Under the pieces are notes generated by a model. It made no database searches, was not told the DNA's origin, and saw nothing but the letters and a program-made list of their open reading frames with translations. DNA of 64,000 nt from Lacipirellula parvula. GTDB lineage: Bacteria > Planctomycetota > Planctomycetia > Pirellulales > Lacipirellulaceae. Location: positions 3,454,501 to 3,518,500 of the forward strand of contig NZ_AP021861.1 of the NCBI RefSeq assembly GCF_009177095.1. Reading direction: 5' to 3'. The first letter of the stretch is position 1. Every line of letters begins with the position of its first letter. Of the stretch, positions 8,071 through 63,205 are shown one piece after another. The translations under genes were made by a program, and so were the position numbers.

Positions 8071-8514
8071 CGCGTGTGTCTCGATCGATGAGGGCGGAGA
8101 GCGCGCGGCGATCCGCTCGCGCAGGGCTCCCCTCCCGATACACGAACGTAGCTCATGGAGGATCGCTGCCGGCGGAATCGGCGGCCGCCGGGGATGTGGC
8201 GCGGCTGGCCTGACCGGCCGAGCCGCTACAGCCGCTACTTCGGGATTCCGTTGTCGGCGTTTCACGAATCCCGACCTATGTTTTCGCTGACTTTCGGACG
8301 ACGGACGGGCCGCCCGTGCGCGAGCGTTGCGCGCGGGTGCGGCTCTCTGCATTGCCGGAGGGGTGTGGGAGGGGTCTCCGACCCCGAAGCGGCGCTGCTC
8401 TCCAATCTTGGTTTGGAGTGGTGCGCGGAATCGGCGTCGGAGACGCCTCCCACAAAGAGAACCGCACTTCCACAAAATAACTCAACTCCACAGTTCAACG
8501 CTGAGATTGCCACG
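8071..8514. other. Divergent intergenic region of the exopolysaccharide locus
   Basis: This 444-bp stretch separates the Wzz-like gene (-) from the FemAB-like gene (+) and must hold promoters for both arms. I could not pick convincing -35/-10 pairs. The main visible structure is the 91-bp repeat copy A at 8364-8454, flanked by short inverted GTGCGG-type arms (about 8336-8347 and 8456-8467). Confidence 0.6.
8364..8454 (+). repeat. 91-bp double-hairpin repeat, family I copy A
   Basis: The 24-nt arms at 8364-8387 and 8431-8454 are inverted with two mismatches. Each arm is itself a 6-bp hairpin: GGGGTC-TCC-GACCCC on the left and GGCGTC-GGA-GACGCC on the right. The two mismatches between the arms are compensated inside each arm, so the local hairpins are the maintained structure. 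The same 91-bp length is found at 15295, 21859, 24095 and 59585. Confidence 0.9.
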
Positions 8515-15294: not shown

Positions 15295-15385
15295 TGTGGG
15301 AGGGGTCTCCGACCCCGATGCAGCATTGCGGGTCGATAACGGTTTGGAATGGTAACCGAAATCGGCGTCGGAGACGCCTCCCACA
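15295..15385 (+). repeat. 91-bp double-hairpin repeat, family I copy B
   Basis: Same 91-bp length and arms as copy A: GGGGTC-TCC-GACCCC at the left and GGCGTC-GGA-GACGCC at the right. The centre (GGTTTGGAATGGTAACCG) resembles the centre of copy D when that is read on the other strand. It fills the space between cdsA and the convergent peptidase gene. Confidence 0.9.
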
Positions 15386-21434: not shown

Positions 21435-22007
21435 GACCACTTCCTGTGAGCTTTCAAAAATGCGCAACACGACCGCGACGGAAACGACCCGGGAAATTCA
21501 TTTACCCGGTCGCCCCCGCTGATTACTCGTGCGTGCGCCCACCCGTTGGAGAAGCGATCGGTCGCGTCAACGGCCGATCGACGTTGTTCGTTGTCACCTG
21601 CGAGAGGCGATTCTAGGGACGCTAGCACTCCTGTCAAAGCCCTTGACTTCATTCGGCGGCGCGTCCTTTTCGCCGCTCGCGAAAAGGGTCGAGAAACGGG
21701 CCCTCCCGATCGTGCGCTCGCGGAGAAAAAAATTAAACTCTGAAGAAGGGCGTGGGTGGATAACGTGTTGGGGTTCGAATTCGTGTTGGCGAATCGCTCG
21801 CGATTGCGAATCAGACGTTAAATGTCGGATGATTCGACACTACGAGTCGAGCTAGTTCTGTGGGAGGGGTCTCCGACCCCGAAGCCGGTATCATTGCCGT
21901 GAAATGTTCGGAGTGGAGAACGACCTCGGCGTCGGAGACGCCTCCCACAATGAATCACAATGAATGCTGCGCTGCACTCGCAACAGAAGTCTTGATCGCA
22001 GCGCTTG
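21435..22007. other. Region upstream of dnaA (possible regulatory or origin DNA)
   Basis: The 573-bp gap upstream of dnaA has no good coding frame. It holds an A-rich tract (about 21723-21740), a single 8-of-9 match to the DnaA box at 21755-21763 (GGTGGATAA), and the 91-bp repeat copy C at 21859-21949. One box is too little to call an origin. Confidence 0.5.
21859..21949 (+). repeat. 91-bp double-hairpin repeat, family I copy C
   Basis: Exactly 91 bp with the same arms as copies A and B (left GGGGTC/GACCCC hairpin, right GGCGTC/GACGCC hairpin). The centre is different in sequence but of the same length. It lies between dnaA and the acetyltransferase gene. Confidence 0.9.
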
Positions 22008-24013: not shown

Positions 24014-24353
24014 CTTCCCCGTCGCTCCCCGGCTCGCAGGGTGGTGAGTACGATAGACCCTCCCCCTAAATCGAGCCTGGCTCCAAAAATCATCTGTGGG
24101 AGGCGTCTCCGACGCCGATGACGGTTACCACTGCCAACGATTGCGGCAGCGCGACGTCGCTTCGGGATCAGAGATCCCTCCCACAGACTTTTTTGGGCAA
24201 GGCTCTAACTTCCTGTTCGACCAGCGAGCGGCGTCAACTTGCCTCGTCGGCCGCGCGCCGCCGCACCTTACTCCACGCCTAAACGCGCCACATCCCCGAC
24301 GCGCGTAGCAGGCGTCGCGACCCGACTCCCATCGACCGTCATCCACTCACGCC
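24014..24353. other. Divergent intergenic region with extended repeat copy D
   Basis: The 340-bp space between the periplasmic protein gene (-) and the methyltransferase gene (+) is dominated by the repeat unit at 24073-24205. The remaining bases show no clear promoter match or coding frame. Confidence 0.5.
24073..24205 (-). mobile_element. Extended family I repeat copy D (MITE-like)
   Basis: The 91-bp core is at 24095-24185 and is read on the minus strand. Its right hairpin has GGGATC-AGA-GATCCC instead of GGGGTC-GGA-GACCCC, a compensated base-pair change. Outside the core, 24073-24094 and 24186-24205 form outer inverted arms (GAGCC..GC.CC..AAAAA) that resemble the outer arms of copy E. No coding capacity. 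Confidence 0.7.
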
Positions 24354-47689: not shown

Positions 47690-49096
47690 ATGCTGTCACG
47701 CCGACTACGCGCTCTCGCCGTCTCCCTCGCAGCGATCTGTTCGCCAGCGATCGCCGCCGAAAATCCGAACGGCATCTACATCCTCAGCACGGCGGTCAAC
47801 AACCCCAACACGCCGCAAGACGATCGCCTCGCGAACATCCGCAACTACGATTTCGTCTCGGGCTACACGCTGCGGCTGTTTTGGAACGACCTGGAAACGT
47901 CTCCGGGCGTTTACAACTTCAACGTCATCAACGAGGCGATCAACCTGCTGGCGCCCCTTAATCAAGGATTGAGCCTTGAGATCTTCACCGGCGAAGAGCC
48001 GCAGTATGTACTCGACGGCGCGGCGGCCAAATACACCGATCATCGCGGCGGAGTGAACCCCGTGCCATGGGACGCCTTCGCTCAGTCGCGGCATGCGGCG
48101 CTCTACGCAGCGCTAGGCGATTACGCCGTCACTGCCGACGGTTCCACGCACGCGCTGCGTGACGATCCGACGCTCCGCTCGATCGACGCGGCCCCGGTCG
48201 GGCTGAACTTTGGCGTCCGCGATCTCAACGGCGCCATTCGCGCGCATCCCGACTACACCCAGCAGCGGTACGTCGATAGCGTTGCAGCCGGCGTCGCCAC
48301 GGCGGCCGCCGCCTTTCCGCGCGATCAAAACTTTCTCGCCTTCTTCGCGTTCAACGACAGCCAGCCCGGCGTACCGGTCGACGAACAGCTGATCGCGCGA
48401 CTCGCCCCCCTCTACAACGGCCCGGGCCAACCAGAGCTCGCGTTCTTCATCGAGAACCTTTCCGACGACGGCCCGCTGCCGCAACCGAACGGAATGGGCG
48501 CCGGCAACAATCTGCTCGATTGGTCGAACCTTGGCGGGCCGTCGATGATCCAAGCCCTCGACTCGTGGCTCGTCCACCGCCCGGAGCGTGACGCGCAACT
48601 CGATAGCCGCAACCCCGCCACTGGCATCGAACTCGCCTACAACGCCTACGGCACGCGTTTTTTCGAGATCTACGTCGCCGACGTCGACGGCGCGATGAAC
48701 GGAGCCCTCGACGCCGCAGGTCAACCGATCGTCGACGACCTGCGGGCGTGGCACGACATCCTCACGCAGCCAACAGCCAGCGCCGACTTCAACGGCAACG
48801 GCGTCGTCGACGCGGCCGACCTCGCCATCTGGAAACAAGGCTTCGGCAATCCCGGCAGCACGCTCCCCGCAGATGGCGACGCCAACGGCGACGGCATCGT
48901 CGACGGCGCCGACTTTTTAGATTGGCAGCGGCAGGCGGGTGGCGGCAATGCCGCGCTCGCAAGAGTTGCAGTTCCCGAGCCCGCAGCGATAGCGTTGGCG
49001 CTACTCGCCGCCGGCTGCACGCTGCTTCGGGTGGCATGTCGTCGCGAAGCGTCGACATGTTGGCATCCACTCAGGGTTTGCATGCTCATGCCTTAG
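47690..49096 (+). CDS. Secreted dockerin/PEP-CTERM protein with repeat-derived C-terminus
   Basis: The 468-residue product starts at the ATG at 47690 with a signal peptide (ALAVSLAAICSPAIAAEN). The middle (about 30-360) resembles a TIM-barrel-type fold, with IRNYDFVSGYTLRLFWNDLE and an acidic stretch later, but no catalytic motif can be named. Two dockerin-like calcium loops follow (ADFNGNGVVDAADLAIWKQG and GDANGDGIVDGADFLDWQRQ), then VPEPAAIALALLAAGC, a PEP-CTERM anchor. The last 21 residues, from VACRRE onward, and the TAG stop are encoded by a dispersed repeat (49031-49114), so the original end was replaced or extended. It is likely surface-attached. Confidence 0.85.
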   Translation: MLSRRLRALAVSLAAICSPAIAAENPNGIYILSTAVNNPNTPQDDRLANIRNYDFVSGYTLRLFWNDLETSPGVYNFNVINEAINLLAPLNQGLSLEIFTGEEPQYVLDGAAAKYTDHRGGVNPVPWDAFAQSRHAALYAALGDYAVTADGSTHALRDDPTLRSIDAAPVGLNFGVRDLNGAIRAHPDYTQQRYVDSVAAGVATAAAAFPRDQNFLAFFAFNDSQPGVPVDEQLIARLAPLYNGPGQPELAFFIENLSDDGPLPQPNGMGAGNNLLDWSNLGGPSMIQALDSWLVHRPERDAQLDSRNPATGIELAYNAYGTRFFEIYVADVDGAMNGALDAAGQPIVDDLRAWHDILTQPTASADFNGNGVVDAADLAIWKQGFGNPGSTLPADGDANGDGIVDGADFLDWQRQAGGGNAALARVAVPEPAAIALALLAAGCTLLRVACRREASTCWHPLRVCMLMP

Positions 49097-49114
49097 AGGG
49101 CAAGAGGATGCCAC
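49031..49114 (-). repeat. Dispersed repeat, family V copy 1 (overlaps a gene end)
   Basis: An 84-bp unit bounded by GTGGCAT and ATGCCAC, read on the minus strand. It carries the CTCTTGCCCTCTAAGGCATG and GTCGACGCTTCGCGACGAC blocks shared with 63041-63137 and with the split copy at 59541-59774. It overlaps the last 66 nt of the upstream gene and supplies its stop codon. Confidence 0.8.
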
Positions 49115-54376: not shown

Positions 54377-54582
54377 CCGGAGCCCCCGAAGGGGGCGGCA
54401 TGATGTAGCCAGGGGCGCCAGCCCCTGGCTTGAAGCAGCGTGATGCCCAGAGCCCCGTGAGGGGCGACACATTTCTAGAACGTGATGACAACAGTGCCGC
54501 CCCTCACGGGGCTAACCAAACTATTCGGCCCAGAGACCAGGGGCTCGCGCCCCTGGCTACATCACTCGGCCCCTCCGGGGCC
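54377..54582. repeat. 206-bp composite palindrome between two sulfatase genes
   Basis: The left half (54377-54470) and right half (54494-54582) are inverted versions of the same composite unit: a CCCCGGAGGGG-type hairpin, TGATGTAGCCAGGGGCGCC..CCTGG, and AGCCCCGTGAGGGGCG..CAC. Each half contains its own hairpins (for example 54408-54429 and 54538-54557). It dominates the 389-bp gap (54329-54717) upstream of the sulfatase at 51965; the rest of that gap shows nothing recognisable. Confidence 0.8.
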
Positions 54583-59444: not shown

Positions 59445-59540
59445 CGACCGCTGCTTAACTCCAAAGGCGATTACTTGCCCCGCGATTCTCTGTTCGCCTC
59501 ACACGCTGCCGACGATTCTGCATTGACGTCGCGGCGATGG

Positions 59541-59774
59541 GCGCCATGCTCTTGCCCCTCAAGGGGCTTTGCCCAAAAATCATTTGTGGGAGGCGTCTCC
59601 GACGCCGATTTCGTCCACCACCACAAGCCGTGGTGGTTTCACCACGCCGCTTCGGGGTCGGAGACCCCGCCCATAGATTTTTTGGGCAAAGCCCCCTCAA
59701 GGCATGAGCATGCGAACTCTGCATGGCCTCTAACGAGCGCTTCCACATGTCGACGCTTCGCGACGACATGCCGC
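59541..59774 (+). repeat. Family V repeat, copy 3, split by an inserted element
   Basis: The left part CGCCATGCTCTTGCCCCTCA.. (from 59541) and right part GGCATGAGCATGCG..GTCGACGCTTCGCGACGAC (to about 59774) are both present, as in the uninterrupted copies at 49031 and 63041. Between them sits a 128-bp unit with terminal inverted repeats (59565-59692). Confidence 0.75.
59565..59692 (-). mobile_element. MITE-like element (family I copy E) inside a family V repeat
   Basis: A 128-bp unit with 15-bp perfect terminal inverted repeats (GGCTTTGCCCAAAAA at both ends) and a 91-bp core at 59585-59675 carrying the family I arms in reverse orientation. It is bounded by direct repeats CCCCTCAAGG at 59555-59564 and 59693-59702; the exact boundary between terminal repeat and duplication is ambiguous (5 to 10 bp). 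No coding capacity. This matches a non-autonomous transposable element. Confidence 0.82.
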
Positions 59775-59785
59775 CCGCCGCTAGC

Positions 59786-59953: not shown

Positions 59954-60278
59954 AGCAGTATTGATGTGGTCAGTTGTGCGAGCGGGAAATTGAATAGCGA
60001 GAGTGTAACCGATCTAGATTTCAGGTGGCAAACTCTCGATCGCTGCTACTCGCGCCTCGCTCTAAATATCACCGGGCGCCGCTTCCGTGCTAGTGAGAAG
60101 TGCCGCCCCTCCGCGGCCCTCCAACCTCCCCTTCTCCCCCTGGGAGAAGGGCCGGGGATGAAGCGAGCCCTCTCACACGCCCCTCACGACGCATGCATTC
60201 ACACGCCCCGCAACGCGATCCCCCCGCCACGCTATAATCACTTCCCGCCCAATCCCCTCACTCCACGGAGCCCCTCCC
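59954..60278. other. Intergenic region between the 55-aa peptide and a small secreted protein gene
   Basis: The 325-bp region contains the hairpin repeat at 60128-60153 and no good coding frame. It should hold the promoter of the + gene at 60279 and of the 55-aa gene (-), but no clear pair is visible. Confidence 0.4.
60128..60153. repeat. CCCTTCTCCC hairpin repeat (family VI copy 1)
   Basis: A CCCTTCTCCC/GGGAGAAGGG hairpin with flanks matching those at 62384-62408 (CAACCT on the left and GGGGATGA on the right), so the shared unit is about 45 bp. Confidence 0.6.
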
Positions 60279-60599
60279 ATGAAACCTTTCGCACTTGTTC
60301 TCGTTGGCATCGTCCTCGGTTGGGCCGCATCGGGCGTCGACTGGCCCCGCAACGCCGTCGGCCAAGAAGCCTCAATTATCACCGAGCGCTTGGCGCCCCC
60401 CGAAGCCGTCGCCACCGCCCCGGCCGAGCCGATGATGATGGCCCCATTCCTCCCCCAAATGTCCGGTCGCTTCCAAATCGCCTCGGAAGCGGGCGCTTGC
60501 TACCGCCTCGACACCGTCACGGGCCGCGTGTGGCACATCACCCTCCACATGAAGCCCCGCGTCGTCGCCGAAGCGGTCGAAATGCCCATCATGCAGTAA
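60279..60599 (+). CDS. Small secreted protein of unknown function
   Basis: The 106-residue protein begins KPFALVLVGIVLGWAASGVD, a signal peptide or single anchor. The middle contains many Met, Pro and Ala (APAEPMMMAPFLPQMSGRFQ), and the end has a compact segment, GACYRLDTVTGRVWHITLHM. Beta-strand-like phrases with TVTGRVWH resemble a short single-domain protein. I see no catalytic residues or repeats. It precedes the third arylsulfatase gene by 154 bp on the same strand, but a shared operon is not clear. Confidence 0.7.
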   Translation: MKPFALVLVGIVLGWAASGVDWPRNAVGQEASIITERLAPPEAVATAPAEPMMMAPFLPQMSGRFQIASEAGACYRLDTVTGRVWHITLHMKPRVVAEAVEMPIMQ

Positions 60600-62974: not shown

Positions 62975-63040
62975 GATAGTTCCTTGGCTCCATACGCAGT
63001 GCAAAGTGCCAATATACGGCCGCGAAGCCGCTTCCGCTGG

Positions 63041-63137
63041 GTGCAATGCTCTTGCCCTTCTAGGCATGAGCATGCTGAACTCGGAGCAGACTCCAACTCT
63101 CACATCAACATGTCGACGCTCCGCGACGATATGCCAC
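63041..63137 (+). repeat. Family V repeat, copy 2 (uninterrupted)
   Basis: A 97-bp unit with CTTGCCCTTCTAGGCATGAG near its start and GTCGACGCTCCGCGACGAT near its end. It corresponds to the empty site of the split copy at 59541-59774. It lies between two divergent genes. Confidence 0.75.
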
Positions 63138-63205
63138 CCGCACGTTACTGGAAATGGTTGTGGCGAATTAAATGATGGAAAAGCCTTTCAGAGACGTTAC
63201 AACGC

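Follow-up and report, generated by a model that had tools for sequence, protein, structure and literature searches.

REPIN-carrying repeat units with outer inverted arms and 10-bp target duplications in Lacipirellula

Introduction

REPINs of the REP/RAYT (TnpA-REP) systems are characterized by two inverted REPs, a head of G-T-G-G type, short hairpins, a high copy number and one RAYT gene enclosed by the same arms, according to the accessible parts of the published descriptions (PMC3116915, PMC2817692, PMC8266576). The repeat described here, termed family I, shares these properties. Some family I units differ from REPINs in that they add outer inverted arms and a 10-bp target duplication. The mechanism of REPIN movement is called open in the accessible text of two papers (PMC3116915, PMC8266576), and a target duplication, which is the footprint of a cutting reaction, provides a handle on how REPINs move. 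A search of the accessible portions of the open-access literature turned up no account of target duplications in REPIN-bearing units. IS200/IS605 elements are described, in the part of PMC2817692 consulted, as having neither terminal inverted repeats nor a larger target duplication, and family I does not conform to this pattern. In Planctomycetes, Y1 transposases flanked by atypical structures have been described (PMC6006769, in the text available).

REP dimers are also found within longer palindromes, in Anabaena variabilis, Halothiobacillus neapolitanus and Thermomicrobium roseum, and the available text treats these palindromes as targets (PMC3733652). The word "duplication" is absent from the main text of that paper. 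Family I likewise has a REP dimer central in a longer palindrome; here, in contrast to the palindromes as described in that text, the palindrome arms are the ends of an inserted unit. The family I ends offer a way to test whether other REP dimers in long palindromes are likewise composite and mobile. A parallel for an insertion within a REP-type palindrome is provided by insertion sequences that target REPs, such as ISRm22, which enters at the palindrome axis and leaves 6-bp repeats (PMC1525189, in the part available). Those are coding insertion sequences, whereas in the present case a REPIN-bearing unit lies in another repeat that appears to be of REPIN type, and most other copies of the unit lie outside hairpins.

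MITEs of DDE insertion sequences are comparable to family I in length (∼128 bp), in being non-coding, and in having terminal inverted repeats with a target duplication of fixed length. Such ends, with the duplication adjoining them, are found in family I, and empty sites are found as well. Family I differs from MITEs in that its center is a RAYT-linked REPIN, and no autonomous parent element with the same ends was found in the genomes searched by end motif.

The element and its host repeat

The window is a stretch of 64,000 nucleotides (positions 3454501–3518500) of the single-contig, 6.92-Mb genome G000 of the genus Lacipirellula, which belongs to the Lacipirellulaceae, Planctomycetota. A family I copy within it interrupts a copy of another repeat, termed family V. 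The features, in window coordinates, are as follows.

59535–59564, plus strand: left part of the interrupted family V host repeat
59555–59564, plus strand: left target duplication CCCCTCAAGG, placed by the 10-bp rule of the family and present as a single copy in the empty family V copies L194 and L202
59565–59586, plus strand: left outer inverted arm GGCTTTGCCCAAAAATCATTTG, 22 nt
59585–59608, plus strand: REP 1, TGTGGGA head and hairpin GGCGTC-TCC-GACGCC
59652–59675, minus strand: REP 2, hairpin GGGGTC-TCC-GACCCC and a partly mutated head (TATGGGCGG), one mismatch
59674–59692, minus strand: right outer inverted arm, 19 nt (one base longer in most armed relatives)
59693–59702, plus strand: right target duplication CCCCTCAAGG
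59703–59778, plus strand: right part of the interrupted family V host repeat
63035–63141, plus strand: uninterrupted family V copy with the empty site, loop CCCTTCTAGG
49028–49110, minus strand: uninterrupted family V copy with the empty site, loop CCCTCTAAGG
24083–24203, plus strand: family I copy with outer arms, without a duplication by eye
8366–8456, minus strand: family I copy, only core
15297–15385, minus strand: family I copy, only core
21857–21950, minus strand: family I copy, only core

A preliminary description of this locus had noted direct repeats on both sides of a 128-bp unit at 59565–59692, and CCCCTCAAGG is indeed present at 59555–59564 and again at 59693–59702. The unit was also described as having perfect 15-bp terminal inverted repeats. 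A perfect 15-bp inverted repeat, GGCTTTGCCCAAAAA, does occur at 59565–59579 and 59679–59693, with base 59693 common to its right arm and to the right direct repeat. Within the unit the perfect terminal bases in register number 14, plus one extra G at the left; the unit stands as described and the arm is one base shorter than was given.

The surrounding sequence was taken to be a family V repeat with empty copies elsewhere, and this agrees with the matches at 63035–63141 (plus strand) and 49028–49110 (minus strand). A genome search with the 63035 copy as query gave 21 matches, part of them partial. In the aligned family V copies L194 and L202 the site reads GCCCCTCAAGGC and holds the 10-mer once; the loop varies in other copies. 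Family V forms a first hairpin, CATGCTCTTGCC-loop-GGCATGAGCATG, and a second, CATGTCGACGC..GCGACGACATG, with GGGTGGCATG as the start on the minus strand. The element is positioned in the loop of the first hairpin. The order of events proposed earlier, insertion after the host repeat existed, is borne out by family V copies of G000 in which the site is empty. On insertion the unit duplicates 10 bp of its target where its outer arms end; in the window the target was a hairpin loop in a preexisting family V copy.

Because several family V copies also show a GTGG-like head at their opposite end, family V looks like another REPIN-type repeat, a candidate to which no RAYT is assigned. In Lacipirellula limnantheis a REPIN copy adjoins a family V hairpin (L133; G003 2776000–2777100), a possible second meeting of the two families.

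The REPIN core and its RAYT

In the family I core (59585–59675) two REPs stand in inverted orientation, both of them made up of a GTGG head and a separate hairpin. The arms face each other at a fixed spacing, the core length being 86–87 bp in 97 of 107 copies, and the arm pattern has 231 matches in G000 compared with 2 for the reversed control. Differences between REP arms fall exactly at bases that pair within each arm, and thus what is preserved is the pairing of the small hairpins, not that of the large palindrome. The paired-base versions are GGCGTC/GACGCC and GGGGTC/GACCCC, and a third, GGCCTC/GAGGCC, is found in G016, a genome from another genus of the same family.

Four matches to PF01797 (Y1_Tnp) are present in G000, three of them without arms of this kind. 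The fourth lies between two perfect arms, at 1466060 (plus) and 1466601 (minus), which enclose a RAYT gene at 1466082–1466588. Its product has 168 amino acids, scores 44.9 bits with PF01797 and displays HYH and YIEHNPV motifs. A PF01797 gene (46 bits) also lies between arms of the same kind in G010, from another genus, and its product likewise ends in MLDREWWP. Two inverted GTGG-headed REPs and a RAYT gene enclosed by the same arms identify the family I core as a REPIN with its RAYT, and the presence of that gene between the arms rules out a mere partnerless palindrome. The RAYT locus itself has no outer arms (its best match to the end motif GGCTTTGC has 3 mismatches) and no flanking duplication.

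At two RAYT loci (L038 1402–1908 and L154) the stop codon is directly at the REP arm, with the ending MLDREWWP in both genera. The REPIN interior beside REP 1 (CGGTCACCA) resembles the last RAYT codons, as if REPINs might be internal deletions of a RAYT element.

Outer arms and the 10-bp duplication

The full unit is built of two layers. The inner one is the REPIN, i.e. two inverted REPs whose arms elsewhere in the genome enclose the single RAYT gene, and the outer one is a pair of ∼20-nt inverted arms. In some copies these outer arms read GGCTTTGC[A]CCAAAAATC and measure ∼22 nt at the left and ∼20 nt at the right. Direct repeats around the core were scored in 137 REPIN copies from three congeneric genomes, 90 from G000, 42 from G003 (L. 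limnantheis I41, NZ_CP036339.1, of the same genus) and 5 from G004. The 90 G000 pairs were drawn from the 231 single-arm matches, and pairs with fewer than 100 flanking bases were left out. Full copies are over-represented in the sample, as 15 G003 and 5 G004 stretches were picked since their BLAST hits reached the outer arms or near to them. As a control, left and right flanks were re-paired within the set in 2000 rounds.

Direct repeats are enriched at 17–26/15–24 nt from the core. A score of at least 7 is reached by 18 of the 137 copies (two of which, L120 and L187, are near-copies of one locus), whereas the 2000 re-pairings average 1.45 and never exceed 6; a score of at least 9 is reached by 7 of 137, where 0.11 is expected and the maximum with re-paired flanks is 3. 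At the same distances, among the first 131 copies, 11 of 40 armed copies score at least 7 (0.51 expected), as do 6 of 91 unarmed ones (0.76 expected). At the four other distance ranges no more than 1 of 40 armed and 3 of 91 unarmed copies do so, against 0.25–0.61 and 0.71–1.52 expected. One armed copy, by position L002, scores 10 at 28–37/26–35 nt. The enrichment is thus strong where the outer arms end and slight or absent where the REPs end.

The ends can also be set by the motif GGCTTTGC alone, blind to any repeat, and 20 copies then qualify. Flank identity in these is 0.63 at length 10, compared with 0.295 in re-paired flanks (z 8.8), and 0.17–0.37 at lengths 3–9 and 11–15. At least 8 of the 10 positions agree in ten of the 20 copies, and the other ten fall short. 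The window copy is among the 20, off register by one base because its right arm is one base shorter. The boundary between terminal repeat and duplication had seemed ambiguous, at 5 or up to 10 bp, because the perfect inverted repeat continues outward to GGGGCTTTGCCCAAAAA. Alignment of the copies with their flanks, the check proposed for the true ends, settles the matter in favor of 10 bp in copies with both outer arms; ends at 5 bp are rejected, since the identity is 0.37 (z 2.4) at length 5. The coincidence of inverted and direct repeats with element ends holds in part: most copies sampled in G000 have only the core, with no recognizable outer arm, and most of these lack a duplication.

The full form of family I is probably a non-autonomous, MITE-like unit of ∼128 bp that inserts with a 10-bp stagger and carries a REPIN. 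A transposase would have cut the two target strands 10 bp apart and joined the unit to them, with gap filling by the host. The exact ends and the fixed stagger define the 128-bp unit and the junction to be expected in transposition assays.

Direct repeats could also arise with no transposition at all, when replication slips or switches template at strong hairpins, or by chance. The element strand does fold strongly, at −44.4 kcal/mol compared with −19.1 (sd 2.6) in 200 shuffles, and copies L001 and L043 are located inside host hairpins. Against such an origin, which appears highly improbable, the repeat counts far exceed those of re-paired flanks and the length is fixed at 10 in two genera. 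Nor are hairpins generally preferred as targets: 5 of the 137 copies have a hairpin target at a score of at least 8, where 1.97 is expected, too weak an excess for hairpin loops to be taken as favored sites.

The same core in other genera

In G016 the same REP arms are found inside unrelated outer arms, [CT]AGGGCCGATCA... (CAGGGCCGATCA...), of 34–36 nt. Flank identity in the six G016 copies with both arms is 0.80 at length 10, compared with 0.385 (z 4.0), and five of the six match at 8 or more of 10 positions. A score of 7 is reached by 5 of 30 rows (0.47 expected, maximum 4 in 2000), one of which, L242, is arm sequence and not a duplication. Since the G016 duplications are also of 10 bp, the two arm sets share one stagger as well as the REP arms. 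The REPIN sets of G016 and G010 show no duplication at the Lacipirellula distance, and direct repeats are not enriched in G010 (21 rows, with locus L262 counted twice).

These observations raise the question of whether RAYT moves the whole unit, by recognizing the REP hairpins, cutting ∼20 nt outside them (34–35 nt in G016) and leaving a 10-bp duplication. REP arms and stagger are common to two genera whose outer arms are unrelated, conservation is higher in the REP arms than in the outer ones, perfect duplications adjoin diverged outer arms in L003, L010 and L136, and the searches by end motif and for ISAs1 gave no resident DDE gene with ends of this kind. Set against this, the RAYT locus is without outer arms or flanking duplication, armless copies show little duplication, and neither terminal inverted repeats nor larger duplications belong to IS200/IS605 elements as far as the accessible text of PMC2817692 describes them. 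We consider movement of the unit by RAYT to be possible though rather unlikely; if it occurs, REPIN movement is unlike that of IS200/IS605. Equally tentative is the broader proposal that in these Planctomycetota REPINs spread as the core of larger armed units, the REP/RAYT system itself making the 10-bp duplications and the outer arms being free to change between genera. Should this be so, long palindromes around REP dimers in other bacteria would be element ends and not targets.

Search for the responsible transposase

Terminal inverted repeats together with a target duplication of fixed length are what DDE transposases leave behind. This footprint is absent in IS200/IS605. A DDE-type enzyme is placed first: we lean somewhat toward a DDE transposase that acted in trans on the outer arms, as with MITEs, and that is now lost or unrecognized. 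The REPs would be kept by RAYT or by selection, with old copies shedding arms and duplications. The sharing of REP arms and stagger by two genera with unrelated outer arms argues against a DDE enzyme, as a single DDE system would not predict it.

Pattern searches of six genomes of the genus Lacipirellula, with up to 2 mismatches, revealed no transposase gene between such ends. All 19 off-core matches of one search were inspected, not every stretch being translated; six off-core matches of another search, in G001, G002, G004 and G005, lie outside this inspection. ISAs1 elements have CAGGG ends and an 8–10 bp duplication. The ends in G016 are CAGGGCC or TAGGGCC with 10 bp, and those in Lacipirellula are GGCTTTGC. 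The ISAs1 transposase domain, PF13808, is absent from six of seven genomes (G000, G002, G003, G004, G010 and G016), with one match in G005; the genomes without it include all three sampled ones that have such duplications. ISAs1, the only DDE family tested, is therefore rejected as parent, its domain being absent where needed. Two further candidates were set aside. A G004 gene (L161) has matches to the G016-type end motif, and its flanks form no matching arms. An 819-bp stretch in L220 has two weak end matches (12 of 17 each) and an open frame of 242 amino acids that by eye looks like a membrane-type protein.

Another possibility is a two-step origin, in which MITEs or plain palindromes, having inserted with 10-bp duplications, were later entered at their centers by REPINs. 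REP dimers in longer palindromes are known and are described as inserted into them (PMC3733652, in the text available). In G000, 12 of 22 matches to the outer-arm pattern lie off the REP core, compared with 3 for the reversed control, and REP-free repeats with similar ends occur at L213 and L218. Most off-core matches, however, are in sequence with no REP or partner end, and the place of the REPIN between the arms is fixed, with gaps of 20–25 nt in 19 of 20 copies and 19–22 nt in 18 of 20, which is not expected from repeated entry. A two-step origin seems improbable on this evidence.

The REP-free repeat in L213 (1509–1963; G000 447309–447761) is 453 bp in length and has inverted ends, TAGGCTTTG[CT]CCCMAAA, that resemble the family I outer arms. 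Other repeats are nested inside it, it has no open frame of 80 amino acids, and one of its ends is also present in L218 near 2046. Its similar pair of inverted ends fits one transposase serving several elements. An Rfam search of the window gave one match, elsewhere than at the element: the Acido-Lenti-1 RNA at 54381–54428 on the minus strand (40.8 bits). Window positions 54381–54582 share 84% identity with the interior of the L213 repeat, and because the surroundings match that interior, the Acido-Lenti-1 RNA here lies in a dispersed repeat.

Core-only copies and shared loci

At an outer-arm cut score of 14, 61 of the 90 G000 copies have neither outer arm, 29 have at least one and 8 have both; about 5% of background segments also pass this cut, and the 29 therefore include chance matches. 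REP arms in G000 are perfect in 163 of 180 cases, in a sampling that favored good arms. Three pairs of loci (L054/L012, L046/L002 and L128/L065) look like insertions common to G000 and G003. At these shared insertions the REP arms are 91–100% identical and the outer parts 53–78%, random pairs being 51% identical on average. Because the REP arms are more alike than the outer parts, the outer arms would appear to erode and the REP arms to persist, either under selection or because the core is copied afresh, two causes that are indistinguishable here.

Two other pairs, L136/L099 and L055/L028, occupy the same gene gap in two species, each copy with its own duplication or flank. Inner identity is 0.58 and 0.61, respectively, and 0.58 in random pairs. 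Since their middles differ, these may be independent insertions, possibly at favored sites.

At the window locus the surroundings are not collinear in L. limnantheis, where only the element and a ∼340-bp block match, in another arrangement. This block, at 60230–60569 of the window, is found again in L. limnantheis in inverted orientation, next to a different family I copy (L170 2064–2412). In the same species REPINs occur in groups of two and three, in L123 and L127 (G003 3979112–3979459 and 6669285–6669873); the flanks within these clusters are shared, and the clusters resemble local duplications.
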